Positions 24,742-62,254 of a DNA stretch of 64,000 bases are shown here, piece by piece. A program made the position numbers and the translations under genes. The notes beneath the pieces are model-generated. The model searched no databases and was not told the origin of the DNA. It saw nothing but the letters and a program-made list of their open reading frames with translations. Origin of the DNA: Enchytraeus crypticus (lineage: Eukaryota; Annelida; Clitellata; Enchytraeida; Enchytraeidae). The stretch's first letter is position 1; each line of letters starts with the position of its first letter. The stretch is taken from NCBI GenBank assembly GCA_905160935.1, contig CAJHZI010000647.1, positions 870,001 to 934,000 of the forward strand, read 5' to 3'.

Positions 24742-24777
<36 letters not shown>

Positions 24778-24808
24778 AAAAATATATATATATATATATA
24801 TATATAAA

Positions 24809-24870
<62 letters not shown>

Positions 24871-26483
24871 AAATTATGTAGGCAATTATTTCCTGGCATC
24901 CGTTCGTCAATTTGGTTTTAAACAAAAAGTGGGATGTAGTAACGCAATTTATTCTTTAAGAAAAACTATTGAATATTTCACAACTAAAAGCTCTACTGTC
25001 AATATTTGTTCGTTAGATGTATCGAAAGCATTTGATAAAATTAATTTCAAAATGCTATTCTGCAAATTGATGAAAAGAAAATTACCAAGAGTGCTAATTG
25101 CACTATTGATAAATTGGTACGGCAAACTAAATTCACGTGTTAAGTGGAATGATGCTGTATCAAGTAGTTTTATGGTTACTTCGGGAGTTAGGCACGGCGG
25201 CATTTTATCTCCAATTTTGTTTGCTGTATGTGTCGATGATATGCTAGTTAAACTTGAAAAATCCAGAATTGGTTGTTTCGTATCATCTCTGTGCTTCTTC
25301 GTCCTTTATGTATGCGGACGATTTAATATTATTATCATTAACAGTGAAAGATTTGCAGTCCCTAATTGATATCAGGAGACATGCATTAGCTAATCTAGGT
25401 TTAAGTGTTAATTGTAGTAAGACATTCTGCATTAGAATTGGTCCTAGACATAACATTAAGCCCATTAATATGATAATTGATAACAGAAGCATAGAGTGGG
25501 TTAATGAAATACGTTATTTGGGATTAATTTTGGTGTCTTCTAAAAGCTTCAAAATCAATTTTCAAAATCGTAAACATAAATTTTCTAGGGCACTTACCGC
25601 TATCTTCAGCAAAATTGGGGGCAACTCTGCACCTTCTGTAGTTATTTCACTTGTTGAATCATATTGCGTACCTATTTTGCTGTATGGTTCTGAATGTGTC
25701 TTCTTCTTCTTCAGAGCACTGCCGAGTGGCAGGTTCAAGGTACATATTCATACTCAAAGTCTGTTTTCTCGCTCCATAAGAGCACTCCTTAGATCAACAA
25801 GTTAATCCCTTCACAAAGTCTATGCCTTATCCATGCCTTATGTAGCCTATAGCTTGGGAAAAATATGGCTTCTGAGGTTGTTTCCCGTTGCTTACCTCAG
25901 TTAGGTGGATTAATTACCATTTAATCCTGGGGGAAAATATTTCTTGGTGAGGTCGATCCCCTCTAGCCATCCTCACATAGCTGAATGTGTAGAAATGTCA
26001 AAATCTGTGATTCAGAGCCTAGAAAATGCTTATTCTCAATTGTTTAGCAAGTTATTTCGTACTTTCGATAAAAACACAATTACGCAATGTCAATTTTTTT
26101 CAGGTCAATTTCCGATTGAACTTAAGATTTCAAATAGAAGATTTAATTTTTTGAGAAAATTGTGTCTTTCTGATAATAATTGTAAATACGTTAATTGTTT
26201 CAATGGAGAGTTATTACCATTAATTAATAAATACTGCGTGAGCGTTAGTAATAACTGTATCTTGCCCGAGAGCTTCCAGGTTGAGAGACTTGACTGGAAG
26301 TCATTATTGCGAAACTACCTTGAACGATCGCTAGAAATCATTTAATTAATTTTTAGTTATTAATTTTGAGTTGATTGATTGAGTGTGTGCTTGCATTGAT
26401 TTTTTGTCAACATTATTTTTGCGTTTACTTGTCTGATTGTATGTATTTGTTTCTTGTCTTGCTACCTGAGTGGTGAAATAAAG

Positions 26484-34900: not shown

Positions 34901-36237
34901 ATTTTGCGGATTGGATGAGACGCTTGGCTGTATTAGACAGTATCTTCGGACGTCCACTACGTTTCATATCCACTAGTTTTTCGTCAAATTTGCTTCGACC
35001 TACCCACTTCGTAACCCAACACTTACTCCGATTTAACTTTTGTGCAATACATTTATGCGAATATCCTTCTTTAGCCAATACTACTGCCTGTGCACGTAAT
35101 TGTATTATTTTAATTTTATCCATATTATAAATTATACGCGGCCTCATCGAACAATAACATTGACACGTTGATTAGCCTTGACTGCGGTCCTGGACGACAA
35201 CATCAGGTAATTTCCAGGCACGCGCTGCATGCAGCCACAGCGTGTCTCTAGCTGCGCCAGTCAGAAAATGGGTCACATTGCGCGACAGCGCCGTGTGACG
35301 TCATTTCCAGGTCTAATGAAAATAAACTTGCACCAACATCTAATTCACATCTATTATACACGAATACGAAATTTTATGAACATGCGACCTTTACTAGCCG
35401 AATTACTGCAATTTGAAAACGGTATGCGAACTTATGCGACACCCTATATATTATGTATTATATCTATTGCTTTTGTATTATATTATATGAAATTATCTTT
35501 TGTATCATATATTAAATATCATAAATATCATACAAAATGATATATTATGTATTATATTGATGATTTATTATGTATTATTATGTGTGATATTTATATATTT
35601 TTATATATCTCACTGATGCTTCAGATCTACTATTAGTATTCCACTCCTGTAATTGTAATAGAAAACGATTTTCTTTGGAATGAAATTGTGCCTAAATCTA
35701 AAATAGTGTATTTTATGCTGCAAACTGTATTGTTTTTAACTTTGCCTTTGTGTATTTTTTCAGAACACTGGTGGATACTGTTTACTCATTGAAGGATCAA
35801 GTTAAAGAACTAAAACAGGTAACTTGTTTTTAAGGACAAAGGCTGTTACTCCTTTATGGTAAGTCCTTTATCGTAACTTTATTGTATACCTAGCACGGGT
35901 AACTTTGCAACCGTGTTAATAATTCAGAAGACCTCTGGTTAAATGTTACTCTCCTTTGGCTACGATTTTCTTATTTAAATTTACGCCATTTTACAGATGG
36001 ACTGAAATGTGATTGATTATTGATTGATTGTTTAAGTGACTGATTGATTGATTAAGTAATTGATTGATTGATTGATTGATTGATCTATAGGAGCAGCAGC
36101 GGCTGAGGAAGGACCTGGACAATGAGAGGAGAGCGAGGAAGAGACTAGAGCTGATGCTGAGGCAGTCGCTCAAGTCCATCGACGAGAACACGTTTGAGTC
36201 GAACGATACGTTAACCAACGCGAATGGAAATACCTAA
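12968..36237 (+). CDS. ARHGEF7: beta-PIX/Cool-1 Rho guanine-nucleotide exchange factor, 17 coding exons
   Basis: Rac/Cdc42 exchange factor that binds PAK through its SH3 domain and GIT proteins through its C-terminal part, at focal adhesions and synapses. Exons: 12968-13048, 13970-14096, 15387-15475, 16367-16461, 17614-17709, 18411-18533, 19243-19381, 20562-20621, 21110-21190, 21870-22019, 22345-22426, 23399-23547, 26946-27222, 30933-31028, 33663-33753, 35764-35818, 36091-36237. All are GT-AG with consistent phases, giving 645 residues, the size of human beta-PIX. Order: SH3 ([38 protein letters not shown]), DH (ITTEKEF through [20 protein letters not shown]), PH ([15 protein letters not shown]), a Pro-rich stretch ([11 protein letters not shown]), GIT-binding [32 protein letters not shown], and a C-terminal coiled coil ([18 protein letters not shown] onward). 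There is no calponin-homology exon. The end of exon 12 could also be 23526. The start ATG has G at -3 and G at +4. The protein ends NANGNT and lacks the mammalian ETNL PDZ ligand. Confidence 0.93.
16783..17240. repeat. 19-bp minisatellite, about 24 copies
   Basis: Unit GTGACCTCTGAGCCGTGTA with few variants (GTGAA for GTGTA, GAACC, GCCTTG), in PIX intron 4. Because 19 is not a multiple of 3, it reads as a false 151-residue frame with a 19-residue period on the minus strand. Confidence 0.95.
18528..18870. repeat. tandem duplication at the exon 6 donor of PIX
   Basis: Two copies, period about 174 bp, both starting TAAGAAGTTAGATTCTAACT. The first contains the real exon end and donor (18533/18534). 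The second (from 18702) repeats the donor sequence without an open exon before it. Confidence 0.88.
21475..21695 (+). repeat. dispersed repeat I, copy 1
   Basis: Shares blocks with 30118-30340: CACACACATGA, CATGCTACA, TTTCCTC-rich middle, ATTGCAGCC, AGAATAACC, CGGGAT and TCAACACTC. In PIX intron 9. Class unknown. Confidence 0.6.
23915..24198 (-). repeat. family C SINE-like repeat, full length, minus strand
   Basis: The minus strand reads from CCCCGTGTTGTGTCCGGATT to a 3' end of GGGATTGAAGGGAAGATGAT repeats, about 284 bp. It forms a nested pair with the plus copy at 24470-24700. Confidence 0.75.
24470..24700 (+). repeat. family C SINE-like repeat
   Basis: Begins GTGTTGTGTCCGGATTGCTG and ends in a GAT-rich tail. 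Internal blocks GGACTGCACCTCTC, CAAACCAACGTCAGAAAGGC and TAGGCTCCTGAAATTGTT recur in every full copy. Partial copies: 1093-1300, 18265-18356 and 22567-22640 (plus), and 19400-19452, 19905-20003, 23584-23690 and 31088-31165 (minus). Confidence 0.75.
24741..24867. repeat. (TA)n tract before the LINE
   Basis: Nearly pure TA dinucleotides. Other long tracts: 2970-3060, 23170-23235, 26485-26765, 28905-28980, 40818-40905, 49148-49330, 55530-55715, 63468-63520, 63575-63606 and 63742-63780. These are common assembly weak points. Confidence 0.95.
24865..26490 (+). mobile_element. LINE (non-LTR retrotransposon) reverse-transcriptase fragment
   Basis: 5'-truncated LINE in PIX intron 12, with (TA)n tracts on both sides. 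The frame from about 24869 gives [31 protein letters not shown] and [15 protein letters not shown]. After a frame change near 25262-25300 it continues with [16 protein letters not shown] (YADD active site), EIRYLGLIL and LYGSEC. A 281-bp SINE interrupts it, after which the C-terminal frame ([17 protein letters not shown] to 26342) resumes. The 3' end AATAAAGC runs into (TA)n. The YADD order and the LRKSGIGC-like block suggest a Jockey/CR1-type clade. It is dead through truncation, the frame change and the nested SINE. Confidence 0.85.
25700..25980 (-). mobile_element. SINE-like element, family G, inserted in the LINE
   Basis: A 281-bp insert interrupts the LINE frame between LYGSECV and EMSKSV. 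The 10-bp host sequence CTGAATGTGT is repeated at 25690-25699 and 25981-25990 as a target duplication. Read on the minus strand, the element ends in a (GAA)n tail. The inner block (TTTGTGAAGGGATTAACTTG, TCTAAGGAGTGCTCTTATGG) recurs elsewhere in the window. This is the best-bounded copy of the family. Confidence 0.85.
26788..26917 (+). repeat. family A SINE-like repeat beside PIX exon 13
   Basis: Well-preserved copy with GGTAAGATACTCGACCGCGG, GGGTTCAAATCCTGGGCTCG and GAGGAAACTGACGTTAACC, ending in TTTACCAGCTTTTT. It lies directly after a (TA)n tract and ends about 28 bases before the exon acceptor at 26945. Confidence 0.8.
27895..28300 (+). repeat. family E repeat with triplicated head
   Basis: A unit of about 80 bp (TGATGGACGATAGATTAATT, TGTCTCAATAGCTCAGTGTG) is tandemly repeated three times and then continues into the rest of a family E element. 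It lies in PIX intron 13. Confidence 0.72.
29352..29507 (-). repeat. family G SINE-like copy, partial
   Basis: The 3' half of the element seen at 25700-25980, very similar in sequence, in a PIX intron. Further partial plus-strand copies lie at 9604-9722, 10935-11025, 20128-20296 and 38795-38908. Confidence 0.75.
30118..30340 (+). repeat. dispersed repeat I, copy 2
   Basis: Counterpart of 21475-21695, about 70-75 percent alike by eye, in PIX intron 13. Confidence 0.6.
30654..30762 (-). repeat. family A SINE-like repeat, minus strand
   Basis: Reverse complement of the core and B box (GTTAACGTCAGTTTCCTCAC, CCCAGACTTTGAACCCC). It lies in PIX intron 13, about 170 bases before exon 14. Confidence 0.72.
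31296..31575 (+). repeat. composite of family C head and family G body
   Basis: Starts with the family C block (TGTGTCCGGGACACTTAAGA) and passes at about 31370 into the family G block (CTCAGAAGCCATATTATTCT to CTAGAGAAGG). It may be a template-switch chimera or one repeat inserted beside the other. Confidence 0.55.
33588..33655 (+). repeat. family D repeat fragment
   Basis: GGGGACGTCCCTGACATCAT and GAAACGGACATTAAACC, ending a few bases before the acceptor of PIX exon 15. The repeat contributes the upstream part of that 3' splice region. Confidence 0.65.
33866..35444 (-). mobile_element. Tc1/mariner-superfamily transposon, DD37E type, apparently whole
   Basis: A 1579-bp element lies in intron 15 of the PIX gene. 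The ends are inverted repeats of about 38 bp starting GGGTGTCGCATAAGTTCG, with one mismatch between the two ends (GTA against GCA). TA flanks both sides (33864-33865 and 35445-35446), the superfamily's usual target duplication. One open frame fills most of the interior. A single open transposase, near-identical ends and no visible decay suggest a recent insertion. Confidence 0.92.
34056..35147 (-). CDS. Tc1-like transposase, DD37E catalytic triad
   Basis: Cut-and-paste transposase of 363 residues (355 if Met9 is the true start). An N-terminal helix-turn-helix covers about residues 10-50 ([19 protein letters not shown]). A GRP-type linker follows (KRSGRPKIL), then a second helix-turn-helix ([10 protein letters not shown] to TIRRYM) and a DDE domain with FTDES (Asp159), FQQDGARCH (Asp263) and [15 protein letters not shown] (Glu301). 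Exactly 37 residues separate Asp263 and Glu301, so this is DD37E rather than the DD34E of Tc1. There is no internal stop, and all three acidic residues are present. The frame opposes the host PIX gene. Confidence 0.93.
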   Translation of the reverse strand: MRPRIIYNMDKIKIIQLRAQAVVLAKEGYSHKCIAQKLNRSKCWVTKWVGRSKFDEKLVDMKRSGRPKILSNTAKRLIQSAKYRRGQSLRRISNQLKIRNERASKDTIRRYMVNDLKWKNWRRKKIPLLTDAHKVKRIKFARDHRNWTVQDWSNVLFTDESPFKVFYIPNPKNDTVWGSQESNVPPAAQMKFSPSVMVWGGMTAHGLTSLHFIPNGTRLNSDYYIVNILDKLVKPAFQRIVTGGNVTRVKLFNDNDLGIFQQDGARCHTSAKTTRWLEDNIPSYIKPKDWPPNSPDLSPIENLWSILSFSVYRDPEPTNVVQLKRRLQQAWRSVKVEILQTLIKSMPDRILAVIKQKGNTIKY

Positions 36238-44200: not shown

Positions 44201-46156
44201 CACTGGTCAACAAATTTTAAGTTTTTGTCTGTTTCCTTAATAAAAATATGTGTCCTAGACTAATTCAGGCATGCTGATTTCAAATATGAAATCCATTTTT
44301 TCACATCACGTACCAATTTTTAGATATCGATAATTTTATATTTCAAATTTCATAATTATGCGAAATATAGATTGTAATACATTATTTTACATAACCAAAG
44401 TTCTTCGAAGAAAAAAAGTGAATTATTCCATCATTTTAATGACAAACATAACGTTTTAAATTAAAATGTTATAACTGTACCTAGAATACATACAGCAAGA
44501 AATTTTAGCTTAATTCAAAACTGCTTAGCCCGTGATTTTCGCTTATAGCTAGTGGAAGGAGCATCTCTCTTTAGCGTCCAGCAGTAGTCCGCTAGCATAC
44601 TTGGACTCCATTTTCCTTGGTAACGCTTTTCCATCGCAGTAATATCTTGGTGAAATCGCTCACCATGTTCGTCACTGACATCACCAAGGTTTGCCGGAAA
44701 AGTATCAAGGTGTGAATGGACGAAATGAATTTTGAGAGACATGTTGCACCCAAGAGACTTGTATGACTGCAGAAGAACATCGACACGCTGAGCATAGTCA
44801 TGTGATTTCTCCTTTCCCAAGAAGTATTTTGTAACGCCTTAACGCCTTTGAAAGCATCCACGCACGAAGTTCTACAAGATTCAGGTTCTCTTCAAACTGT
44901 TCATCATTCATTACTTCCCTGATCTGAGGGCCTACAAAAATTCCTTCTTTGATTTTGGCATCACTGACACGTGGAAACTTGCTTTGAAGATATCGAAAAC
45001 CATCGCCTGATTTATTCATTGCTTTCACAAAGTTTTTCATCAATCCCAGCTTGATGTGCAGTGGTGGAAGATATATTTTACTAGGATCAACGAGTGATGG
45101 ATGAGCAACACTTTTCTCGCCAGGAACTGAACCTGTGCGTCTCGGCCAATCTTTGACGACATACTGATCATTTTTTGCGCGACTATCCCATTCACACAAA
45201 AAACAACAGTACTTTGTATATCCGGGTTGCATTCCCATCAGTATCCCAATAACTTTCAGATCTCCACAAATGTGCCACTGGTGCTGTGCGTAGTCTGTTT
45301 GCTTCAACAGTACATCAATATTTTCATACGTCTCCTTCATATGTACTGCATGTCCAATCGGGATGGATGGATAAACTTTGCCGTTGGGAAGTAATACAGC
45401 TTTTAAACTTAGCTTTGACGAATCTATGAAAAGTCGCCATTCAGTTGGATCATGTTCAATACCTAAAGCTAAGAGAAGACCATTGACGTCACTGCAGTAG
45501 GAAAGATCACCTTCCCTCTTGAAGAAAGGTAAGAGACTAGCATGACGGGTCCTCAATGATATTCTTGTATCTTGGTCTAAGAGATTCCACTGTTGTAGTC
45601 TGGAGCCAAGCAATTCCGCTTGAGCTTTTGATAGGTTTAAATCTCGTACTAGATCATTCAATTCAGATTGATTTATAAGATGAGGGCCGTCAGACTGGGC
45701 AGAAAGCTCTTCATCTGATTCCTGCTGAACTTCAGCAGCTAAGGATTCACTGTCATCTTCATCCGTAGACCAACTTTGTGGCGGTACAGGAACCTCGAGA
45801 TCGTCTGAATGAAGCACAGGGCGCACCTGTACTATGGTCTATATGTACTGTGCCCTATAAAATAGGGCATAGTACTTACAGAGCATAGTACATATTATGT
45901 ACTATGCCCTATTAACGGAATGGAATCTATTGCAGTCAGGCATTGAGAAATAAATAGTTCTAAGTAAGCCTGCGCCTTCATAATCTTAATGCAAAGGTTC
46001 TAATTAAGCATTCTGAAAAGTGGAAAATGATTCTAGTCGATAACTTTTTTTTCTTACGTGATAGAAAAAAACCGAGACCAGATTTGAAATCAGCATGCCA
46101 AAATCTATAAGAAACACCTATTAAATACAAGGAAACAAAAATCATGTTGACCAGTG
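44201..46156 (-). mobile_element. Chapaev3-like (CMC superfamily) DNA transposon
   Basis: A 1956-bp element. The ends are imperfect inverted repeats that begin CACTGGTCAACA and share an inner block GGCATGCTGATTTCAAAT about 60-80 bp in from each end. The flanks are TTA on both sides (44198-44200 and 46157-46159). CACT ends with a 3-bp TWA-type duplication are what I recall for Chapaev3. The interior encodes a transposase-like protein on the minus strand. A palindromic AT-rich insert at 45826-45925 built on ACTATGCCCTAT lies just upstream of the frame. The family name rests on ends, target duplication and memory of the protein family, not on a search. Confidence 0.75.
44515..45826 (-). pseudogene. 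Chapaev3-like transposase, frameshifted
   Basis: Two minus-strand frames, 45826-44798 (342 residues) and 44820-44515 (101 residues), are parts of one protein of the uncharacterised transposase-like family seen in many invertebrate genomes. Conserved blocks: LFIDSSKLSLKAVLLPNG, WHICGDLKVIGILMGMQPGY, the zinc-finger-like CCFLCEWDSRA, YLPPLHIKLGLMKNFVKAM, KIKEGIFVGPQIREV, then in the second frame LGCNMSLKIHFVHSHLD, SDEHGERFHQDI and MEKRYQGKWSPSMLADYCW. The shift lies at about 44800-44840. The Asp of FIDSS, the Asp of CGDLK and the Glu of HGERFH are my candidates for the DDE triad; this is inference. The N-terminus may also be missing. Confidence 0.8.
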
Positions 46157-46428: not shown

Positions 46429-46476
46429 TTTGTGTGATAAAACGATTCGAGCAATACGTGCTGAATCGCCGCCCGG

Positions 46477-46734
46477 CTACTCGAAGTCATCAAGCGGTTT
46501 AAAAGAATTGCTGAAGCAAACTGCGTTAAATCCTTGCAAGGTTATGAAAAGCCTTTGCCAAAGAAAAGAGGAGGTCTCTCGCTTATCGCCGATTTCCTCT
46601 GTAATAAGTTTGCCTATGCCATTAATGAAATCAACTTCATTGGGATTCATGGGGCCCATGGTTTCAATGGCCACAGGAACAACTTCATATCCTACGGACA
46701 GGTCATGGCATTTATCCATTTTCTCAGAAGCGGC

Positions 46735-46737
<3 letters not shown>
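46477..46737 (-). mobile_element. retroelement-related ORF fragment at the left edge of the inverted duplication
   Basis: The minus strand reads MAASEKMDKCHDLSVGYEVV to the end of an 86-residue frame. It resembles the conserved tail (PVAIETMGPMNP, FNAVCFSNSF) that I recall downstream of reverse transcriptases in marine invertebrates; the family is not certain. The right arm of the duplication carries only the first eight codons before homology ends at 58148. Confidence 0.5.
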
Positions 46738-46779
<42 letters not shown>

Positions 46780-46920
46780 AAGTATTATTTTTATTTTTAT
46801 TTTTATTATTTGTATTATTATTATTATTATTGATATTTTCATCATCATCATCATTATTTATTTTTTGATTAATTTTATTTTTATTTTTATTACTATTATT
46901 ATTTTTTAATCATTTTTATT
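46738..46920. repeat. (ATT)n-rich tract, left arm
   Basis: ATT/TTA triplets and TTTTTATT blocks, mirrored at 57945-58127. Confidence 0.9.
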
Positions 46921-48390
46921 ATTCACTTTGTCACACACAAACAATTAAACGTATAGATAAAAACCATTCTAACTTTTTGAGCCTCTTGCCAGCGAAAAAT
47001 TTCAAGCATATTGGACTATAATGCATTATTGAGTGTCCCATAGACTAAATCTTTCAAGGAAGCGCTGAAAGTCCTTTTTGAAGTTTATACGTTGTTAAAT
47101 ACACCATCTATTTACGTCAAGTGATAATACATAATATAACATTCATATCAGTAAAACTTCCTAAAGACGTTATAACACTTGAAGCCTGTCTGTCCTTACA
47201 TCGTTATTAGCTTCTCTTGTTATCGATCTTGGTAGCTCAATTTAATTCTTTTTGTTGGAGGGGCTCAAATGTTGCTACTTCTCCATAAATTTACTGACGA
47301 CGATTTAAAGTAATCAGTGCAGAGATTATATTGTAGAATTTATCTTTACAAAATAAAAGTAAATAATAATCAAAATAATTAATAATAGTAAGAATACTAC
47401 TACTACTACTAATAACAATAATAATAATTATAAGGGCACTTATTTAAAAATAAATAATAACAACAATAATAATAATAATAATAGCAATAATAATAACAGT
47501 AATGATAATTATTATTATTATTATTAATGATAATAATAATAACCCTTATATAATTAATAAATTAACTACTTACAAATAAAATAAAAATACTAATAATTAA
47601 TAATAATTATAATATATAGTAAAATTTTGAATCGAATACTGCGTAGTACGCTCCATATTGCGTGTAATTATATTTGTGTTATTATTGTGTACTTACTTAT
47701 AACTATGTCAACTTATGTGTAATTATATTATAATGTTGCGCAAGAGTTGTATAATTATACAAAACTAATTTTTTTTATATAGGAACATTCATGATCATGT
47801 AGCTAACTATTAATTTACGCATTTATTTATCCATATGTCAAACGCACGCCCACGTACATGTGCCGTATTTAGATTGAATAAGTTTAACTCTTTTAACTGG
47901 AGGAGATGATACCCTCGCAAGCCCACGTGGATTGACGTCAGTGTTATCTATTATACAATTTACAAAATTATTGTGTTTACAGGTCAGGCCTTCAAGAGAT
48001 AAATAAACTGTTCTTCAATTACGCAAAAGAAAAATTACCGAAATGTTTCACTTTCAACTGTTTTTCTGCCTATAGTTTCATCTTATCAGTATGATCTGTA
48101 TCAGCTCTAGGCCATCTACGTAGATTCTTACCGCTGTGCCTAACAGGCCCTATGCCTATATAATCACTGTCGATTTATCCATCATCCATAAGCACGTGTT
48201 TGAAGAGCATACGAGAGCGACTAGATTGGTTCTAGCAGAATAATATTCAGTAACTTTTCAAAATCTTTCTAAGATTTCTTTAAAGTAAGCGATATTGATC
48301 AATTCTATAACCTAATACTAGGTGATCTAATAATTCTAACTGGAAATAATTCTACGTAGAGAATATAAACCTCCATACGAATCAGCAGAC

Positions 48391-49147
48391 ATGTCTAAGC
48401 CAGCTGGAAAAGAAACTGAGAACGAGTATTCTAACGCGGAATTTAGCGGATCATCCACCGTAAAACACGAACCCGCAGTGGTCGGGGGTGCTGTGGCTGG
48501 GGCAAATTATAGCGGAAAAACTGAGGAAAACGAAGTATACGCCACAATACCTAGCAGCGCTACAGACAAGCTTGGGAGAGATCCTTTCAGCGTCGAAGGT
48601 GACATCAAGGTTAGTCGGTCAATTCCTCTCATGTTGTTTAATGTAGTTGTTGCAATGTTGTTTAATGCAATGTTGTAATGTTGTTGTCATAAACCAGCAT
48701 CTGTGCTTCCTGACCCAGTGTGCCGTTATGTTAATTCTGTTACTTAGTATGGGTGGTAATGTAATATTTCGATCCGTATTATTTCGTTCATTACCGAGAT
48801 ATTCTTCGGCAAGATAACGGTAATACATCTTTAGCAACGTTGGTTCAAAATAAAAACCATTCAAGCACTAATATAGTTCATAATAAGAACAAGCAATTCG
48901 GAATCAATGTTAACACGACTGGAAAAATTATAATAATGTCCAACAAATGGTGTAAAATATCTAGTAAACCAGTCCAATCCAGCCCAAACCAGTCGAAACC
49001 AGTACACCACGCTTTTGAAGCCAATCAAGGAAAGTCAGGGACGAAATTAGGAGGGCTGATAGTGGGAGTGGTCTCGATCTGTCTGAATCTTACAAGCTAT
49101 AGCCTGCTGTTATTTTATCATGAGTAGTTTGATTGACAAAATTTTAA

Positions 49148-49205
<58 letters not shown>

Positions 49206-49275
49206 TACATGTATATATACAGTACATGTATATATACAGTATATATATATATATATATATATATAGGCCTATATG

Positions 49276-49334
<59 letters not shown>

Positions 49335-50817
49335 TTGGTTATATTTCTACACCATAGATTTCTGATTCAGAGAGTTATAATTGATTCAGATCCTCTGACC
49401 TGTCATCATTTTATAGAAGAATAATTATCTCAGGTATATAGTTTTCGATGTTTGTAGTTTATACTTGTACTGTGTGTCTTTATGTAGATCCAGTTCGATG
49501 ATTTATTCCCAGAACCGACCGATCAAGTGCAGAGCCAAGAAGATGTATGGAAAGTTAGCAACCAGGTAGGATATGTGTAATATAGGCTTCATTACAAGCA
49601 AACAACATGAGATAGGCTATATAGGCTTCAATACAAGCAAACAACATAGGCTAGGTGATATAAGCTTCAATACAAGCAACAACATAGGCTAGGTTATATA
49701 GTCTTCAGTAAAAGCAAACAACATGAAATAGGCTATATAGGCTTCAATACAAGTAATCAACATGGGTTAGGCTATATAGTCTTAAGTACAAACAAGCAAC
49801 ATGAGCTAGGCTATATAGGTTTCAATACAAGAAAACAACATAGGTTAGGCTATAAAAGCTTCATATTGACAACATCGTCTGTACAACATTCAGCTAACGA
49901 TGTATATACAATATTCAGCTAACGTTTAAAAATAAGCAATAAACCAAAGGGTCTGGCATAATAGCAAATCTAAATATGTAATCGATTTTGATTCATCTAT
50001 CTTTAGCGCTCTAAAATGACAGCATAATAATTATTCATGATTAATTTATTAATTTTATTTATTGATTGATTGACTAATTGAGTGACTGATTGATTTATTC
50101 ATGAATCTATTGATTGATTTATTGATTGGTTGGTTTATAAATTTATTGGTTCATAGATTCATTAACTGCGTATCTGACTGACTGACTAACTGACTGAGTG
50201 ACTGACGGACTGACTGATCGACTGAATGACTGACTGACTGACTGACTGATTGATTGACTGACTGATTGACTGAATATGTCGGACTGACTGAGTGATTCAA
50301 TAATTGATAGAATGATTCGTTGATTACCATATCGATTATTTCACTGACATAACATAACATAACAACAACTAGAGTGCTACAATCATCAATGACAGCATCT
50401 AGCACTATTGAGACAAAATCAAGCCGGCGAGCAAAATGAAGGTCCAAAAACGGTGCAAATTCAAAAATCCAGATAATATTCTAAATGTCCTTTACTTACT
50501 CACTGATTGCTCTCACTGTACAGGTCTACACAGGCACAAAGTTTTGGTGCTACAGAATAACGTCGCTCATACTTGGGGTGCCAGCTGCCTGCTGTTGGGG
50601 TGTCATATTTGCCTGTACCATGTTCATCAGGGTCTGGTGCTGCATGCCATACCTTCGCTGCTTCCACATCCGCATCAGTTTCTGCAGAATTTACTATCAA
50701 ACTATCATCAACACCTTCGTGCTGCCGTGCTACGAAGCCATCGGATACGTCTTCTATCACATGAGAGTTCAAGTAGTACGTCAGCCAGATGCTCGTGCAG
50801 AATTGCAGCATTTTTAA
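48391..50817 (+). CDS. CAV: caveolin, left-arm copy, 3 exons
   Basis: Caveolae scaffold protein that inserts as a hairpin in the inner leaflet of the plasma membrane. Exons 48391-48609, 49488-49565 and 50524-50817 (GT-AG, both introns phase 0) give 196 residues. Residues 1-73 are polar ([13 protein letters not shown] onward) and end with [11 protein letters not shown]. Exon 2 carries the caveolin signature FDDLFPEP (residues 76-83) and EDVWKVSNQ. With the start of exon 3 this forms the scaffolding segment (about 91-110) ending TKFWCYR. A hydrophobic, cysteine-rich intramembrane stretch follows ([15 protein letters not shown]), then [20 protein letters not shown], matching the caveolin C-terminal domain. 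Intron 1 holds a (TA)n tract and intron 2 a 39-bp minisatellite. A dispersed repeat ends about 30 bases before exon 3. An almost identical copy lies in the opposite orientation at 54034-56474. Confidence 0.92.
49575..49866. repeat. 39-bp minisatellite in caveolin intron 2, left arm
   Basis: About seven units built on TAGGCTATATAGGCTTCAAT and ACAAGCAAACAACAT. The mirror array is at 54993-55284. Confidence 0.85.
50340..50480 (-). repeat. family F repeat in caveolin intron 2, left arm
   Basis: Reverse complement of the family F block, ending about 40 bases before exon 3. The mirror copy is at 54370-54490. Confidence 0.75.
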
Positions 50818-51004
50818 TTTCACAGAAAAATGTTGATAGAACTTAATTATACTGAAGAAGACGGTACAAATATGAATGCTGATGCCTCTATTATGAATGC
50901 ACTGCTAGCCGCTCTTTGTGCAGATTAGAACAAAGGACATTTATTTGAATTTGATTGGATAGTATTATTGACAGTATTGATTGAGAAAATCACCCAATAG
51001 GTAA

Positions 51005-51180
51005 TTTATACTATTTTCCGTATAACCAGTCCAGTGAATGTCCAAGATGTTGCTCTCAGATCAGCGCAGCTGGGATTTGAATCCACGAGGGTTCAGTTCA
51101 GCTCAGGATCTGTCATTTAGAACTTCATGACGTTACCCCTACGCTATTTAGACATTCTAGAACTGTTGGAGTATTGCTTA
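51005..51180 (-). repeat. family E SINE-like repeat, left arm
   Basis: Lies about 200 bases after the left caveolin stop codon. The mirror copy is at 53668-53850. Confidence 0.75.
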
Positions 51181-51687
51181 CATAACTAATGATTGATTGA
51201 CTAATTATGTAAATTAGTGTCTTTCACTTACATAATTTATTATGCTACCTCGCTGGGTTAGCGCTAGAGCAGAAAAGCAACTTTACATTCTGTGCTCGAT
51301 TGTTCAGTCTACATGTATAGGACTTGACAACTAGTAATATATAATATTAGGCAATTTATTTAAATTATTCTAGTGTTTAATTAATTCCATCTACTATATA
51401 TTATAATTACCTTATTATTACGCATAAAATTACATTGATAAGCGATTTATTAATATGCCCTATTATTTCAAATATTAATATTTTACGAGATGATTGATGT
51501 AATAAACTATTAGCAACAATTAACTGCAACGATTTGCGTTTCACAGTTATTTTGGTACTTTAATGTTAATTTTATATACATGTAGATCGTAGAAAATAAA
51601 TGATTTAAAGAATTGTTTAGTTTTTTATTGATAATTTCTATACTGTGCATTCTATTCGTAAGTGTTGGCTACCTGTTGGTTGGCCAA

Positions 51688-51982
51688 GTTATCACCATCA
51701 TCATCTTCTTCCCTTAAATCCTAGTTTAGCTATAAGGTCGGGATACTAATTAATGGACTTTCTCCATTCCTGTTTGTCCCATACCATATCAAAATCTTTT
51801 TCATTCGTTTAAAATTTTTAAAGCAATTTCTGGAGCCTAGGCGCTCACCAACTGAATGCCCTGTCTGACGTTGGTTTGGATCTTTGTGCTTTGGCCGCCT
51901 TCTACGTCATGTGAAATCATCGATTAATGACTGCACTTGCCGCTATTCTATTCTTAAAACAAACCGGACACAACACGGGGAC
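51688..51982 (-). repeat. family C SINE-like repeat, inner end of left palindrome arm
   Basis: Full-length minus-strand copy whose 5' end (CCCCGTGTTGTGTCCGG) lies within ten bases of the inner boundary of the arm. The mirror copy is at 52866-53162 on the plus strand. Confidence 0.8.
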
Positions 51983-51990
51983 CAAATTAT

Positions 51991-52860
51991 CGATGATGCA
52001 AACAATAACTTAATTGAAGAACAATTTAATTTCGAAGAAAATTTGGTGCTGTGAATTTTAGCACACTAGTTTTGAATAAACCATCCGTTCCATCAAACGA
52101 TTCACGGAAAAAGTGAGACGATACATTTTCTAGATTGAACGACATAGCCAATTGAGGATTGTCACAGCTGTTAGCCGCGCCCACTTTTATACACCTACCG
52201 GCATTGGCATCCATATTGGATTACGTCTGTTGATTATTAGCATTACGTATATATAGATATATATGCATTTAAAAAATAAAATTTCTATATATGTACGTAT
52301 ACAGGGTGAGTAAAAAAAAGATAACACCTGCAAAAAGTTTGAATATCTCAGGCTATTGTTAATATTTGTAAATTAAACTTTTACCAATTAATAAGGGACT
52401 AATTTCTGGTGGGATGGCCAATTTTCATTTATTTTGGTGCAAAATGTTGCTTATATAGTAATCGGTCTCTGTGTTATTTTATTAACTAGACCAAGACTTA
52501 CAGCTCCCAAACTACCCCAGGCAGGACCTACCCATGTTAGTGTTCGTTATACCTTCGCGTTGTGAATTGGCACAGATAGCAAACTGAGCAGTGTTAGCAA
52601 CACTAACAACAAGCAACAACAATACACTCTTTTAACAATAATTAAGTACCACACCTAAATACTGCACAATAGATTAGAATATGCAGCATAGTACATGGTT
52701 ATGATAGGCATACATTGAAGAGGTTTTACAGTGCAAACTTTGCAGCGATTAAATAAAATTAACAGGTTGAATGTTTAATAAAATTTCGTATGACTCAGCT
52801 AGGTTTCTAATCGGCGGCAATACCTGTTATTTAAATTATTATAATATTTGTCCGTAGGCT
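51991..52860. other. unique spacer of the inverted duplication
   Basis: 870 bp with no mirror counterpart. Near 52301 it holds ACAGGGTGAGTAAAAAAAAG, which resembles a mariner-type terminal repeat, but no matching second end was found. A 62-codon minus frame at 52026-52214 has no recognisable domain. Confidence 0.7.
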
Positions 52861-52865
52861 ATAAT

Positions 52866-53162
52866 TTGGTCCCCGTGTTGTGTCCGGTTTGTTTTAAGAA
52901 TAGAATAGCGGCAAGTGCAGTCATTAATCGATGATTTCACATGACGTAGAAGGCGGCCAAAGCACAAAGATCCAAACCAACGTCAGACAGGGCATTCAGT
53001 TGGTGAGCGCCTAGGCTCCAGAAATTGCTTTAAAAATTTTAAACGAATGAAAAAGATTTTGATATGGTATGGGACAAACAGGAATGGAGAAAGTCCATTA
53101 ATTAGTATCCCGACCTTATAGCTAAACTAGGATTTAAGGGAAGAAGATGATGATGGTGATAA
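52866..53162 (+). repeat. family C SINE-like repeat, inner end of right palindrome arm
   Basis: Mirror of 51688-51982. The two inverted copies face each other across the unique spacer and could have driven formation of the inverted duplication. Confidence 0.8.
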
Positions 53163-53667
53163 CTTGGCCAACCAACAGGTAGCCAACACTTACGAATAGA
53201 ATGAACAGTATAGAAATTATCAATAAAAAACTAAACAATTCTTTAAATCATTTATTTTCTACGATCTACATGTATATAAAATTAACATTAAAGTACCAAA
53301 ATAACTGTGAAACGCAAATCGTTGCAGTTAATTGTTGCTAATAGTTTATTACATCAATCATCTCGTAAAATATTAATATTTGAAATAATAGGGCATATTA
53401 ATAAATCGCTTATCAATGTAATTTTATGCGTAATAATAAGGTAATTATAATATATAGTAGATGGAATTAATTAAACACTAGAATAATTTAAATAAATTGC
53501 CTAATATTATATATTACTAGTTGTCAAGTCCTATACATGTAGACTGAACAATCGAGCACAGAATGTAAAGTTGCTTTTCTGCTCTAGCGCTAACCCAGCG
53601 AGGTAGCATAATAAATTATGTAAGTGAAAGACACTAATTTACATAATTAGTCAATCAATCATTAGTT

Positions 53668-53850
53668 ATGTAAGCAATACTCCAACAGTTCTAGAATGTC
53701 TAAATAGCGTAGGGGTAACGTCATGAAGTTCTAAATGACAGATCCTGAGCTGAACTGAACCCTCGTGGATTCAAATCCCAGCTGCGCTGATCTGAGAGCA
53801 ACATCTTGGACATTCACTGGACTGGTTATACGGAAAATAGTATAAATTAC
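53668..53850 (+). repeat. family E SINE-like repeat, right arm
   Basis: Mirror of 51005-51180. GGATTCAAATCCCAGCTGCG is its B-box block. Confidence 0.75.
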
Positions 53851-54033
53851 CTATTGGGTGATTTTCTCAATCAATACTGTCAATAATACTATCCAATCAA
53901 ATTCAAATAAATGTCCTTTGTTCTAATCTGCACAAAGAGCGGCTAGCAGTGCATTCATAATAGAGGCATCAGCATTCATATTTGTACCGTCTTCTTCAGT
54001 ATAATTAAGTTCTATCAACATTTTTCTGTGAAA

Positions 54034-55524
54034 TTAAAAATGCTGCAATTCTGCACGAGCATCTGGCTGACGTACTACTTGAACTCTCATGTGATAGAAG
54101 ACGTATCCGATGGCTTCGTAGCACGGCAGCACGAAGGTGTTGATGATAGTTTGATAGTAAATTCTGCAGAAACTGATGCGGATGTGGAAGCAGCGAAGGT
54201 ATGGCATGCAGCACCAGACCCTGATGAACATGGTACAGGCAAATATGACACCCCAACAGCAGGCAGCTGGCACCCCAAGTATGAGCGACGTTATTCTGTA
54301 GCACCAAAACTTTGTGCCTGTGTAGACCTGTACAGTGAGAGCAATCAGTGAGTAAGTAAAGGACATTTAGAATATTATCTGGATTTTTGAATTTGCACCG
54401 TTTTTGGACCTTCATTTTGCTCGCCGGCTTGATTTTGTCTCAATAGTGCTAGATGCTGTCATTGATGATTGTAGCACTCTAGTTGTTGTTATGTTATGTT
54501 ATGTCAGTGAAATAATCGATATGGTAATCAACGAATCATTCTATCAATTATTGAATCACTCAGTCAGTCCGACATATTCAGTCAATCAGTCAGTCAATCA
54601 ATCAGTCAGTCAGTCAGTCAGTCATTCAGTCGATCAGTCAGTCCGTCAGTCAGTCAGTCACTCAGTCAGTTAGTCAGTCAGTCAGATACGCAGTTAATGA
54701 ATCTATGAACCAATAAATTTATAAACCAACCAATCAATAAATCAATCAATAGATTCATGAATAAATCAATCAGTCACTCAATTAGTCAATCAATCAATAA
54801 ATAAAATTAATAAATTAATCATGAATAATTATTATGCTGTCATTTTAGAGCGCTAAAGATAGATGAATCAAAATCGATTACATATTTAGATTTGCTATTA
54901 TGCCAGACCCTTTGGTTTATTGCTTATTTTTAAACGTTAGCTGAATATTGTATATACATCGTTAGCTGAATGTTGTACAGACGATGTTGTCAATATGAAG
55001 CTTTTATAGCCTAACCTATGTTGTTTTCTTGTATTGAAACCTATATAGCCTAGCTCATGTTGCTTGTTTGTACTTAAGACTATATAGCCTAACCCATGTT
55101 GATTACTTGTATTGAAGCCTATATAGCCTATTTCATGTTGTTTGCTTTTACTGAAGACTATATAACCTAGCCTATGTTGTTGCTTGTATTGAAGCTTATA
55201 TCACCTAGCCTATGTTGTTTGCTTGTATTGAAGCCTATATAGCCTATCTCATGTTGTTTGCTTGTAATGAAGCCTATATTACACATATCCTACCTGGTTG
55301 CTAACTTTCCATACATCTTCTTGGCTCTGCACTTGATCGGTCGGTTCTGGGAATAAATCATCGAACTGGATCTACATAAAGACACACAGTACAAGTATAA
55401 ACTACAAACATCGAAAACTATATACCTGAGATAATTATTCTTCTATAAAATGATGACAGGTCAGAGGATCTGAATCAATTATAACTCTCTGAATCAGAAA
55501 TCTATGGTGTAGAAATATAACCAA

Positions 55525-55587
<63 letters not shown>

Positions 55588-55653
55588 CATATAGGCCTAT
55601 ATATATATATATATATATACTGTATATATACATGTACTGTATATATACATGTA

Positions 55654-55717
<64 letters not shown>

Positions 55718-56474
55718 TTAAAATTTTGTCAATCAAACTACTCATGATAAAATAACAGCAGGCTATAGCTTGTAAGATTCAGACAGATCGAGACCACTCC
55801 CACTATCAGCCCTCCTAATTTCGTCCCTGACTTTCCTTGATTGGCTTCAAAAGCGTGGTGTACTGGTTTCGACTGGTTTGGGCTGGATTGGACTGGTTTA
55901 CTAGATATTTTACACCATTTGTTGGACATTATTATAATTTTTCCAGTCGTGTTAACATTGATTCCGAATTGCTTGTTCTTATTATGAACTATATTAGTGC
56001 TTGAATGGTTTTTATTTTGAACCAACGTTGCTAAAGATGTATTACCGTTATCTTGCCGAAGAATATCTCGGTAATGAACGAAATAATACGGATCGAAATA
56101 TTACATTACCACCCATACTAAGTAACAGAATTAACATAACGGCACACTGGGTCAGGAAGCACAGATGCTGGTTTATGACAACAACATTACAACATTGCAT
56201 TAAACAACATTGCAACAACTACATTAAACAACATGAGAGGAATTGACCGACTAACCTTGATGTCACCTTCGACGCTGAAAGGATCTCTCCCAAGCTTGTC
56301 TGTAGCGCTGCTAGGTATTGTGGCGTATACTTCGTTTTCCTCAGTTTTTCCGCTATAATTTGCCCCAGCCACAGCACCCCCGACCACTGCGGGTTCGTGT
56401 TTTACGGTGGATGATCCGCTAAATTCCGCGTTAGAATACTCGTTCTCAGTTTCTTTTCCAGCTGGCTTAGACAT
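54034..56474 (-). CDS. CAV: caveolin, right-arm copy, 3 exons
   Basis: Second complete caveolin gene, the mirror image of the copy at 48391-50817. Exons on the minus strand: 56474-56256, 55371-55294, 54327-54034. The conceptual 196-residue product shows no difference from the left copy in any exon I compared, including the FDDLFPEP signature and the scaffolding segment. Upstream sequence is also duplicated to 58148, so both copies should carry the same promoter region. The two genes converge, with stop codons 3.2 kb apart. Length changes between arms are confined to simple repeats in the introns. It could be a true second locus, a copy kept identical by gene conversion, or a second haplotype placed here by the assembler. 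Confidence 0.88.
54370..54490 (+). repeat. family F repeat in caveolin intron 2, right arm
   Basis: TTTGCACCGTTTTTGGACC, GCCGGCTTGATTTTGTCTC and TAGTTGTTGTTATG tail. Confidence 0.75.
54993..55284. repeat. 39-bp minisatellite in caveolin intron 2, right arm
   Basis: Mirror of 49575-49866, with the same unit order. Confidence 0.85.
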
Positions 56475-58085
56475 GTCTGCTGATTCGTATGGAGGTTTAT
56501 ATTCTCTACGTAGAATTATTTCCAGTTAGAATTATTAGATCACCTAGTATTAGGTTATAGAATTGATCAATATCGCTTACTTTAAAGAAATCTTAGAAAG
56601 ATTTTGAAAAGTTACTGAATATTATTCTGCTAGAACCAATCTAGTCGCTCTCGTATGCTCTTCAAACACGTGCTTATGGATGATGGATAAATCGACAGTG
56701 ATTATATAGGCATAGGGCCTGTTAGGCACAGCGGTAAGAATCTACGTAGATGGCCTAGAGCTGATACAGATCATACTGATAAGATGAAACTATAGGCAGA
56801 AAAACAGTTGAAAGTGAAACATTTCGGTAATTTTTCTTTTGCGTAATTGAAGAACAGTTTATTTATCTCTTGAAGGCCTGACCTGTAAACACAATAATTT
56901 TGTAAATTGTATAATAGATAACACTGACGTCAATCCACGTGGGCTTGCGAGGGTATCATCTCCTCCAGTTAAAAGAGTTAAACTTATTCAATCTAAATAC
57001 GGCACATGTACGTGGGCGTGCGTTTGAGATATGGATAAATAAATGCGTAAATTAATAGTTAGCTACATGATCATGAATGTTCCTATATAAAAAAAATTAG
57101 TTTTGTATAATTATACAACTCTTGCGCAACATTATAATATAATTACACATAAGTTGACATAGTTATAAGTAAGTACACAATAATAACACAAATATAATTA
57201 CACGCAATATGGAGCGTACTACGCAGTATTCGATTCAAAATTTTACTATATATTATAATTATTATTAATTATTAGTATTTTTATTTTATTTGTAAGTAGT
57301 TAATTTATTAATTATATAAGGGTTATTATTATTATCATTAATAATAATAATAATAATTATCATTACTGTTATTATTATTGCTATTATTATTATTATTATT
57401 GTTGTTATTATTTATTTTTAAATAAGTGCCCTTATAATTATTATTATTGTTATTAGTAGTAGTAGTAGTATTCTTACTATTATTAATTATTTTGATTATT
57501 ATTTACTTTTATTTTGTAAAGATAAATTCTACAATATAATCTCTGCACTGATTACTTTAAATCGTCGTCAGTAAATTTATGGAGAAGTAGCAACATTTGA
57601 GCCCCTCCAACAAAAAGAATTAAATTGAGCTACCAAGATCGATAACAAGAGAAGCTAATAACGATGTAAGGACAGACAGGCTTCAAGTGTTATAACGTCT
57701 TTAGGAAGTTTTACTGATATGAATGTTATATTATGTATTATCACTTGACGTAAATAGATGGTGTATTTAACAACGTATAAACTTCAAAAAGGACTTTCAG
57801 CGCTTCCTTGAAAGATTTAGTCTATGGGACACTCAATAATGCATTATAGTCCAATATGCTTGAAATTTTTCGCTGGCAAGAGGCTCAAAAAGTTAGAATG
57901 GTTTTTATCTATACGTTTAATTGTTTGTGTGTGACAAAGTGAATAATAAAAATGATTAAAAAATAATAATAGTAATAAAAATAAAAATAAAATTAATCAA
58001 AAAATAAATAATGATGATGATGATGAAAATATCAATAATAATAATAATAATACAAATAATAAAAATAAAAATAAAAATAATACTT

Positions 58086-58127
<42 letters not shown>

Positions 58128-58148
58128 GCCGCTTCTGAGAAAATGGAT

Positions 58149-59662
58149 TAATTAATTATACTAGTTCAGTAGGTTTTGATCGAGGACTTGTAACACTAGT
58201 CTAGTCGTAATTCAATGCCTCAATACACAAAGACCGTAAAGGATTCAAATACGAACCGTAAGTCTTTAACTATAGGCTAGTGCAAAAGGTCAAAATTTTC
58301 AATAATATTTTGGTTACAGATCTATGTATATTCCAATAACTTTTCCCTGTTTTGAGAAATTTGACCTTAATTTGCCCTACATAAATGGCAGAAATGGCAG
58401 AAGTTTTGCAATGACTAATTTCGTCAAACCACTACAGCTTGCCAGTTGCCACCAATAGGCCTATCTTATATTTCGACAACTAATTAAATACATAGACTAA
58501 GTACACAACAAAACAGAAACACATCGTGCGGACAGATTTTTGTCCCATTTTCCTGAATTTCACTCATGGAGTCCAAATTTCTGCCATTTCTGCCAATTAG
58601 CCTGTCAAGCACTATTTGGCAGAAATGCTGAAATTATGTGTAAGAAAGCTTTCAAGAATCATCATATCCATTACCAGTTCATTAACCTGTAAGAAAGAAC
58701 CAATGTCCATATGCCAGACACAATTTTATACTAAATTAAGATGAAAAACTACTTAAAGTTACATATATAGCCGTGCATCATATAGAGTGAGTGTCGTATA
58801 TCAAAATGGCGGCTTTGTAATGTAAACAAAAAATGACGTGTTCATGAAACCTCTCTATATGAAAAGTAAACAGACACTGAAAGGTGAAGGTCGGACGATG
58901 TAGATTTTAGTTAGATTTTAACAGCACAACATTTTCAAGGTGTTTCTTTCTTATTAGAGGACAGGAAATGGTAAAATGCTTTGCAGCCTTATAAATTTAA
59001 TCAGCTTTTACGTGGTAAATGCCAATATAAATGTCAATTTAAGAAATATTTTATAATTTTTCTTGCATTTATCATTATGTTCAATGCCGTCATCGCGTGA
59101 ACAATTTAATTGTTTGTGCTGGTTCTGAAATTTAGTGACTATTTACCCTAACGGTGGCTAATCAATAAACTGTGCATAAAGTGAAGTCACGCATCTGGCA
59201 ACAACATACTCAGTATACAGTTATGCCATACTCGCCGGAAATATTTTGAGTAATGTATACATTTCAAAAGCCTGACACTTCGTAGATATCTAACGTGAAA
59301 TATTAGTTGTGCTTGTTCTGCAAGTCAGTGACTAATTACACTAATAGCTTCTAGATAACTTGTACAACACTCGAGATGCTTCGTCCTATCTACAAATTAT
59401 ATGTGGACATAGCCACGACTATATTAACCATCTTTTGATACACAAGAGTATGATAGATATCATAAGCTCCGTGCCCTAGTAGTGCGTAGTACCTAACTAA
59501 ACACTAATATATTCAAGCGCAATCTATATATTTACATTTTGTTTGTCGTAGTCATGTATTTATACATTTTTAGCAGGTTTAATCTACCATTATTGAATAT
59601 GGTGTATATTTTCTGAAGTATTGAAATCATTGACCAGTACACATTATAGATTTCTCATTGGG
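58149..59662. other. region upstream of Apollo
   Basis: Unique DNA. TGGCAGAAATGGCAGAA at 58387 is repeated inverted near 58576-58597. ATCAAAATGGCGGCTTTG near 58800 resembles a YY1-type core-promoter motif (AANATGGCGGC). No coding sequence seen. Confidence 0.5.
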
Positions 59663-62254
59663 ATGAGCGGGCTAGTGTTAAAGGATTTACCGATAGCTGT
59701 AGACTTCTGGAGGCCAAGAAGCTGCACCCATGTGAAACTGTTCTTCCTTTCTCACATGCATTCAGATCACATTAATGGATTGACAGAGCGGTGGTCGTAC
59801 CATATATACTGCAGTCCGATCACAAAGAAGCTTCTTGTAATAAAATTTAAGGTATATACGGTCATTTTATCTTAGCCGATAGCTGTTGCATGAGCATTGT
59901 CTGACATTTTTGAAGGCAAATTTTGTGCAGTTATGATAAGAGAGAGAACTATATTTATTGCAAACATACAGTAACTCATACGGTTGTTAAAGAGGTTACA
60001 AAGTAGCTTAGTTTATAGTCTAGTATCTAGTTGTCCACTTATCTGACATAAGAGGAGAAATTAAAAATAAACAGGCAAAAGTAGATGCAATCTTTGAAGA
60101 AAAGAAAGGGAAACACTCTATAGTCAGTATATGATATTGTTTCAGTACATATATAGTTAACCTTAAAATTAAATTGGCAATATCTTATCTTTATATAGAT
60201 AGTTATAAACAATTAGAAACTGATAATCTGGTAGTCACCAAAATATGAGTGGCCTGATTGGTCAATTATAATATTTATTAACCTCAATTCATAAGATAAA
60301 GCTAGTATTAAATATATACTTCATTGTATAATATTTGAAATGTTAGCATAAAGTATTTCGTTGTGATTTACAAAGTATTTATAGAAGAATCAAAATGCTG
60401 TATTTAAATTGCTATGTAATATATATAAATGACTCATTTCTCTAAATTTTTCTTTGTATATAAGTTGCTTCATTAACTTTCAAAGCACTGCTCATTGGTA
60501 CCCATTTTCACCTCTCAACTTTCAGAGCACTACTCATTGATAAACCTCCTTCCTACTGAGTTTGTATTTCCTTAGTTTGTATCTCAGTGCTATATAAGCA
60601 CACTACTCCTGTGTACATAGTACAATACACAGTCCTATCATTCTCAATGTTGAGCTGCTGAAGCCAGTTAAGTTGTACATCTTTCTCCAACTACTCTAAC
60701 ATCTTGAACCTTTTTTCTCATGATTTTTCACTTGGAATATTCCATTTTCCTACCCGTGAGGATATTCTATTTTCCTTGTCTATGTTGGGCTTAAAATATC
60801 ATTTGTAACTGATATACATTTAAATGTCTTAACTGACATTTGACGCCCTGCTGCCACTTATTGATCTCATCAGTGCTAGTTATGTGCTGCTGGGATATTC
60901 TTTGCATCATCGAGAGAAAATAGAGGAACTTAGACGATAAGTTTCAAACTGTGGAAGTGGCTAAAGATTGAGGGAGATATGAGAGAGAGAGAGAGAGAAA
61001 AAAACTTACATTGAATAGCATATATTGTACAAATATATTTACTACTATTTTTAACAGGCTCTTGAAGACAGAATCCATGCTTTGGAGATGAATGAGCCGC
61101 ATATACTGTCTTACGGAAGGCTTGATGAAACCGTTACAGTGACACTGATAGACGCTCGTCATTGTTACGGTTCTTGCATGTTTCATTTCATCGGTAGCTT
61201 CGGAAGAATTTTCTACACCGGTGACTTTCGCTTCTGTCCAGCAATGCTCTACGACGAATCGTTCAATAGAATCGTTAGATCTGCTCCAGTTGATGATCTA
61301 TACCTGGACAATACCTTCTGTAGCCCAAACTGTCGGCAAATACAGAGCAGAGAGAAGGGTTTGGCAGAGATCGTTGATCTGATCAAAGAGCATGATGATC
61401 ATTTGATTATTCTGTCTCTTAGAACATTGGGAAAAGAAAATCTTCTTATTGCTTTGGCTCATATTCTTCGACGGCGGATATGCGTATCTGCAAATCGCTA
61501 TAAAACACTAATGGCTGTAGAAGCCCCAGATATGTTCACCTGCGACGAGAGTGAGGCAGATATCATAGCAATAGACACTGGTCGTGCTAGCCCATGGCAT
61601 GTGAAGAAATTGAGCAGTCATTATCTTTCAGTTTTAGAGATTATACCAACTGGATTAAATTGTGCTATGCTGGATAATGAAATAATCAGTACGAATAGTA
61701 AAAGAAAAGTTGTTGGCTATTCTGATCATTCAACCTATGAGGAGCTGCAGGAATTTGTGAAAATAGTTGCGCCTAAACGAGTGCATCCCATCCTCACAGC
61801 TTCTACGAGTGGTCGATTAGCGAAGGCAATTCCTGAATTTTGTGATATGCAGTGTTTTGATCGATATTTAACCAAGGATTACGTGTCAGACATAGATACT
61901 AGCCCTATTAGAAATAATAGAACGATAACCTTTGCTAATAATACCAGTCCTCGTTCTCCTTTTAGAGATGTGAAATCTTTTAATTTTCCTTCTAAATTAT
62001 TTCCAACGGGTTCAAGTCCTGCAAAAGCTCTTAAGTTTACAAGTCCTAACAAAATGGCAACGAATTCGAGTAAAAAAGTATCTACATGTCTCTCTGGCTC
62101 GGCTGTAAGAGCATCAACATCAGAATCTGGTCTTACTGATAATATTTCGGAAAAGAGAAAATTATCTCGCAGAAAGTCTGGACTCAAAATACCCAAGACA
62201 TGCCATAGACCAGGCGTGCCAAAGGGAGTGGAGTACGTGTGTGATAGTGATTAG
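59663..62254 (+). CDS. DCLRE1B: SNM1B/Apollo 5' exonuclease (metallo-beta-lactamase, beta-CASP), 2 exons
   Basis: Predicted zinc-dependent 5' DNA exonuclease of the SNM1 family. Apollo processes telomere ends and takes part in interstrand-crosslink repair in the nucleus. Exons 59663-59851 and 61058-62254 join in phase 0 to give 461 residues. Visible motifs: PIAVDFW (Asp14), FFLSHMHSDHINGL with the metal-binding HxHxDH at 31-36, YCSPIT, DARHCYGSCMF (His98; the usual form is HCPGS), IFYTGDFRF (Asp119), LYLDNTFCSP, LRTLGKENLL, and GYSDHSTYEEL of the beta-CASP part. The match is closest to Apollo rather than Artemis or SNM1A, which is clear from the start MSGLVLKDLPIAVDFW. The last 170 residues are Ser/Lys-rich and unalignable. 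I see no YxLxP-type TRF2-binding motif. The stop codon falls at the edge of a dispersed repeat, so the natural C-terminus may have been lost or may lie in further exons. Confidence 0.9.

Follow-up and report, generated by a model that had tools for sequence, protein, structure and literature searches.

A near-identical 5.3 kb inverted duplication carrying a convergent pair of caveolin genes in a genome assembly of Enchytraeus crypticus

How did a segment of the genome of the annelid Enchytraeus crypticus come to carry the same caveolin gene twice, tail to tail, in two arms that are almost the same sequence? The question is raised by a 5.3 kb inverted repeat in a 64,000 nucleotide stretch of contig CAJHZI010000647.1 (C552; positions 870001-934000) of GenBank assembly GCA_905160935.1, which consists of 524 Mb in 802 contigs. 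The whole of this stretch is referred to as the window, and coordinates are those of the window unless a contig is named. The arrangement is probably the product of a single recent segmental inverted duplication, generated by fold-back or template switching and perhaps still polymorphic, that doubled the gene together with its surroundings.

Comparison of the window with itself using BLASTN revealed one long inverted match between 46710-51990 and 58152-52861, with 99.47% identity over 5299 columns. An inverted match of 5.3 kb at 99.5% identity, judged without a shuffle, is far outside chance. The left arm (46714-51990, forward strand) and the inverted right arm (52861-58148, reverse strand) are separated by a spacer of exactly 870 bp (51991-52860), and the strict arm edges and spacer length given in the initial annotation agree with the self-comparison. 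Beyond these edges four more bases match, to 46710 and 58152, with one mismatch at 46713/58149, and the outer flanks of the two arms differ in sequence. The longest ungapped block found by a repeat finder is 2464 bp and pairs 46739-49202 with 55663-58126. No second copy of the spacer was detected in the window outside the palindrome or in the 36 other assembly loci that were compared.

Each arm includes one caveolin gene, predicted from the sequence, with three exons separated by GT-AG introns that join to give a 591-base coding sequence, made up of 196 codons plus the stop codon. In the left arm, the coding part of exon 1 (48391-48609), exon 2 (49488-49565) and exon 3 with the stop codon (50524-50817) are on the forward strand. 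The corresponding exons of the right copy (56256-56474, 55294-55371 and 54034-54327) are on the reverse strand and each is identical to its left counterpart. The two coding sequences (48391-50817 and 56474-54034) are thus identical and the genes converge on the spacer, confirming the earlier claim of tail-to-tail genes with identical products. An intron lies ahead of the signature region, at what we take to be the position of an intron in vertebrate CAV1. AATAAA signals are found past the stop codon of the left copy at 51501 and 51595. Two overlapping frames at exon 3 (50412-50846, forward, and 50500-50904, reverse) were dropped because the caveolin match sits in the frame at 50485-50817.

The caveolin label is upheld by both Pfam and solved structures. 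The joined 196 aa product matches Pfam Caveolin [PF01146] with an E value of 2e-31 (109.2 bits, gathering cut-off 25), and residues 56-183 align with positions 6-132 of the 133-position profile. The solved structures matched are caveolin-1 [7sc0] (1.1e-25) and the distant caveolins 9dn0 (8.7e-7) and 9dn1 (5.7e-6). The alignment with human CAV1 [7sc0] extends over residues 45-184, and the sequences are divergent, with FDDLFPEP in the predicted protein where the caveolin-1 chain has FEDVIAEP. Each arm also includes 1.68 kb upstream of the ATG and 1.17 kb downstream of the stop codon and, because the block extends this far, both copies are probably functional and would raise the caveolin dose. 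The initial annotation described a doubling of complete regulatory and coding sequence. The gene and its surroundings are indeed doubled, whereas the completeness of the regulatory sequence is suggested by these two flanking lengths.

Differences between the arms are few and small. Two substitutions (47837/57028 and 51647/53204) lie outside the simple-repeat arrays, compared with the single one caught previously, and one of the two falls within the 2464 bp ungapped block. With four arrays masked, this corresponds to 2 in 4370 aligned bases, or 0.046% (Poisson 95% limits 0.006-0.17%), and an identity of 99.95%. The three simple-repeat length changes previously described were all recovered, namely one ATT unit at 46736, three TA units at 49150 and two 4 bp units at 50198, and ∼10 further bases differ inside a TA array at 49262-49275. 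BLASTN places the arm differences as 3 mismatches and 5 gap openings. A second alignment, made with MAFFT, contains 12 mismatches over 5274 aligned bases, 2 of them outside the arrays. It also has 4 gap events, including a 4-base overhang that arises from how the right arm was cut. The largest single difference is no more than 8 bp, so that neither arm holds a transposon that the other lacks. Substitutions do not cluster toward the arm edges, which are abrupt. At the inner edge 343 bp are identical without a break, and the nearest non-array difference is 343 bp from the edge. At the outer edge, an array difference of a single ATT unit lies 22 bp in, and the first non-array difference is 1.1 kb inside, at 47837.

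The outer edges indicate which copy is the older. The left outer edge is spanned by a copy of a dispersed repeat (46432-46734) that contains a coding fragment on the minus strand and presumably represents the terminal part of a retroelement-encoded reverse transcriptase. When 46432-46734 was used to search the assembly, 39 of the 40 other matches listed (the best 40 of 2056 candidates) covered the whole stretch, and in all 29 other loci examined the repeat copy is continuous across the point equivalent to 46714 and on to 46734. The minus-strand frame could likewise be aligned across the left outer edge with 9 protein relatives (9 of the 16 found were aligned). The right arm retains 21 of 21 bp of the repeat (58128-58148, forward strand, equivalent to 46714-46734) and then switches to other sequence, placing the derived outer junction just past this remnant, between 58148 and 58153. 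Because the repeat is unbroken across 46714 but reduced to a 21 bp remnant on the right, the left flank and left arm are, on this sequence comparison, the older order, and the outer junction of the right arm is the new one.

Whether two copies are present in the genome at all depends on the assembly. One real caveolin locus might have been placed twice, through a chimeric or fold-back read or through a second haplotype carrying the block in inverted orientation. The low divergence of 0.05% outside the arrays would be compatible with double placement of a single sequence plus errors in array length, and artificial palindromes are described as common after whole-genome amplification [PMC6218980]. 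However, a fold-back read would be expected to carry the left flank, reverse-complemented, after the arm, and the right arm ends instead in different sequence, toward an Apollo-like nuclease gene. Two false junctions would be required, and the arms carry two clean substitutions outside the arrays. The assembly contains two full-length matches to the arm, both in the window, and no third full-length copy or second near-identical left edge was found among the candidates scored (the best 40 of 16829 for the arm); the remaining 71 of 73 arm matches span at most ∼300 bases of the arm. The outer flanks differ, and only one of them is derived. An assembly error is consequently regarded as unlikely. 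The misplaced haplotypes that were a concern in the initial annotation also appear less likely, though they retain some probability: the candidates scored include no third copy, the outer flanks are unlike each other, and the outer junction is derived in one arm only.

Fold-back or template switching leaves behind a single-copy spacer that separates the source segment from its inverted copy, and, if the duplication is real, such a step is proposed for this reason. The starting order would have been left flank, caveolin block and spacer. A broken or stalled strand end past the spacer would then have folded back onto its own strand, the block would have been copied backwards from 51990 to 46714, and the copied end would have been joined to the right flank, ahead of the Apollo-like nuclease gene. 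The outcome would be two complete convergent caveolin genes flanking an 870 bp loop. In human fold-back inverted duplications, too, a spacer separates the inverted copy from the original; it is single-copy there, was present at 21 of 21 sequenced junctions and was 766-70,466 bp long [PMC3907307], a range that includes 870 bp. Inverted microhomology of 2-8 bp was seen at 13 of these 21 junctions, ∼300 bp of repeat homology at 3 and insertions at 5 [PMC3907307]. The human cases listed there are megabase-scale and lie beside terminal deletions or translocations [PMC3907307], whereas the duplication described here is 5.3 kb and interstitial, with no visible microhomology.

Sequence features near the edges were considered as possible substrates. 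A second dispersed repeat, with many matches across the genome, is located at the inner edge of each arm (51691-51990, with a mirror copy at 52861-53160). Most of its listed matches stop ∼9 bp before the inner edge of the arm and one reaches the edge, and the placement of the inner edge 0-9 bp past the end of this repeat may be chance. A pre-existing inverted pair of these repeats was rejected as the seed of the rearrangement. The pair is identical over 305 bp, compared with ∼16-28% difference among longer family matches, and given this identity the repeat at the second inner edge most likely arrived with the copy. A 10 bp word, CCTACGGACA, is present at 46691-46700, 13 bp outside the left outer edge, and in inverted orientation at 52849-52858, in the spacer 2 bp outside the inner edge of the right arm. 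When four 25 bp stretches were drawn at random from the window 2000 times, 34 draws shared a word of at least 10 bp, making CCTACGGACA weakly unusual, and no mechanism was found that needs it.

Several points weigh against a single recent inverted duplication formed in this way. Inverted microhomology is not visible in the present-day sequence of the inner junction, where the arms and spacer part immediately at 51991/52860. Seven of the 29 loci used to establish polarity hold an extra partial copy of the repeat, and 6 of these 7 end before the point equivalent to 46714 (range 46493 to 46705). As these partial copies end at varied places, breaks in the polarity repeat are not rare, and none was seen at 46714. 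In addition, the duplication is known here from one assembled genome, and the estimate of its age depends on assumed mutation rates.

That estimate bears on whether the arms are alike because they are young or because they have been kept alike. If mutation rates of 1e-9 to 1e-8 per base and generation are assumed, the two substitutions place the last time of complete arm identity at 229,000 to 23,000 generations ago; these are point estimates with wide limits. An old palindrome of the type found on mammalian Y chromosomes and in Caenorhabditis, with arms homogenized by gene conversion between them, would match the pattern of arm identity and whole-gene content, and the 99.95% identity outside arrays reaches the near-99.9% mark of conversion palindromes. 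A young duplication would give the same value. The convergent hsp-16 gene pairs of C. elegans, which are 100% alike and common to C. remanei, turned out to be ancient [PMC1803023]. Similarly to the locus described here, whole genes and intergenic DNA are mirrored there around a short unique spacer, with arms up to 100% alike [PMC1803023]. The hsp-16 repeats are old, present in both C. elegans and C. remanei, degenerated in C. briggsae and composed of two genes per arm [PMC1803023], whereas one genome and one gene per arm are involved here. Human Y palindrome P6 also has spacer-separated, near-identical arms (99.97%, compared with 99.95% outside arrays here), and conversion was demonstrated there by comparison across lineages and species [PMC3723533], where the present locus is represented by a single genome.

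The E. crypticus arms have abrupt edges without a zone of substitutions, the truncated repeat is intact in the right arm (21 of 21 bp), and no arm difference exceeds 8 bp, for which youth is the simpler account. Abrupt edges, the small size of all differences and 0.05% divergence mean that youth alone suffices. Judged from these sequence features, youth would be the better explanation of arm identity and nothing requires conversion. The hint of arm-to-arm gene conversion offered previously therefore finds no support in this locus, and an old palindrome maintained in that way is considered quite improbable.

The remainder of the assembly was searched for relatives of the duplicated gene. With the caveolin protein as query, 12 candidates yielded 11 matches, six of which are the exons of the palindrome pair. 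The other five are all <50% identical and are located in contigs C330 (47%, or 49% by tblastn), C377 (31%), C293 (30% and 27%) and C107 (27%). The genome therefore holds other, old caveolins, and near-identity is confined to the palindrome pair. The two caveolin-like matches in C293 (C293:1413980-1425752) are ∼11 kb apart in the same orientation, and the weaker one includes two internal stop codons. In a protein search, the full-length caveolin had no match at E 0.001 among 54 candidates, and the exon 3 frame matched one caveolin, P0017, with 46% identity. Multiple caveolin paralogs are reported in Bilateria, Placozoa and Cnidaria in a recent study [PMC12330381], and extra caveolins as such are thus unsurprising. 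No caveolin inverted pair of this kind was found in print in a narrow keyword search judged by title.

To the right of the palindrome, 61055-62254 encodes part of an Apollo-like nuclease, with a DRMBL domain above the Pfam cut-off and 5′ exonuclease Apollo as the best solved match (1.5e-39). The frame at 59597-59875 probably belongs to the same gene; its metallo-lactamase match (16.4 bits) is under the Pfam cut-off of 27. Elsewhere in the window, an uninterrupted 371 aa transposase-like frame on the minus strand (34059-35171) contains Tc3-type helix-turn-helix and DDE domains above Pfam cut-offs. Reverse-transcriptase-like open frames are located at 24620-26345, and the one that was scanned, 25248-25802, has an RVT_1 match just under the Pfam cut-off. 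An array of 19 bp units at 16783-17242, with shifted copies ∼97% alike, is open in more than one reading frame, and a 346 aa open frame on the minus strand (44801-45838) has no Pfam match at E 0.01.

The palindrome is a further case of a known kind, alongside the nematode and Y-chromosome palindromes and the human inverted duplications. It could be supposed that the mirrored pair is itself selected, with a 5 kb hairpin RNA formed by convergent transcription through the spacer, or conversion keeping promoters and genes identical, allowing the palindrome to regulate caveolin dose. That convergent transcription across the spacer might yield a hairpin RNA is purely hypothetical, and selection of the pair for this purpose is considered extremely improbable. 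Should the second copy prove to be an assembly error, it would serve as a warning for gene counts in the E. crypticus genome. If real, the locus would represent an inverted gene duplication caught early, with sharp junctions, a recognizable older copy and coding sequences that are still identical. It could then be used to follow the rate of divergence or conversion between inverted arms, and to ask if expression is increased or silenced by an additional gene copy in convergent orientation.

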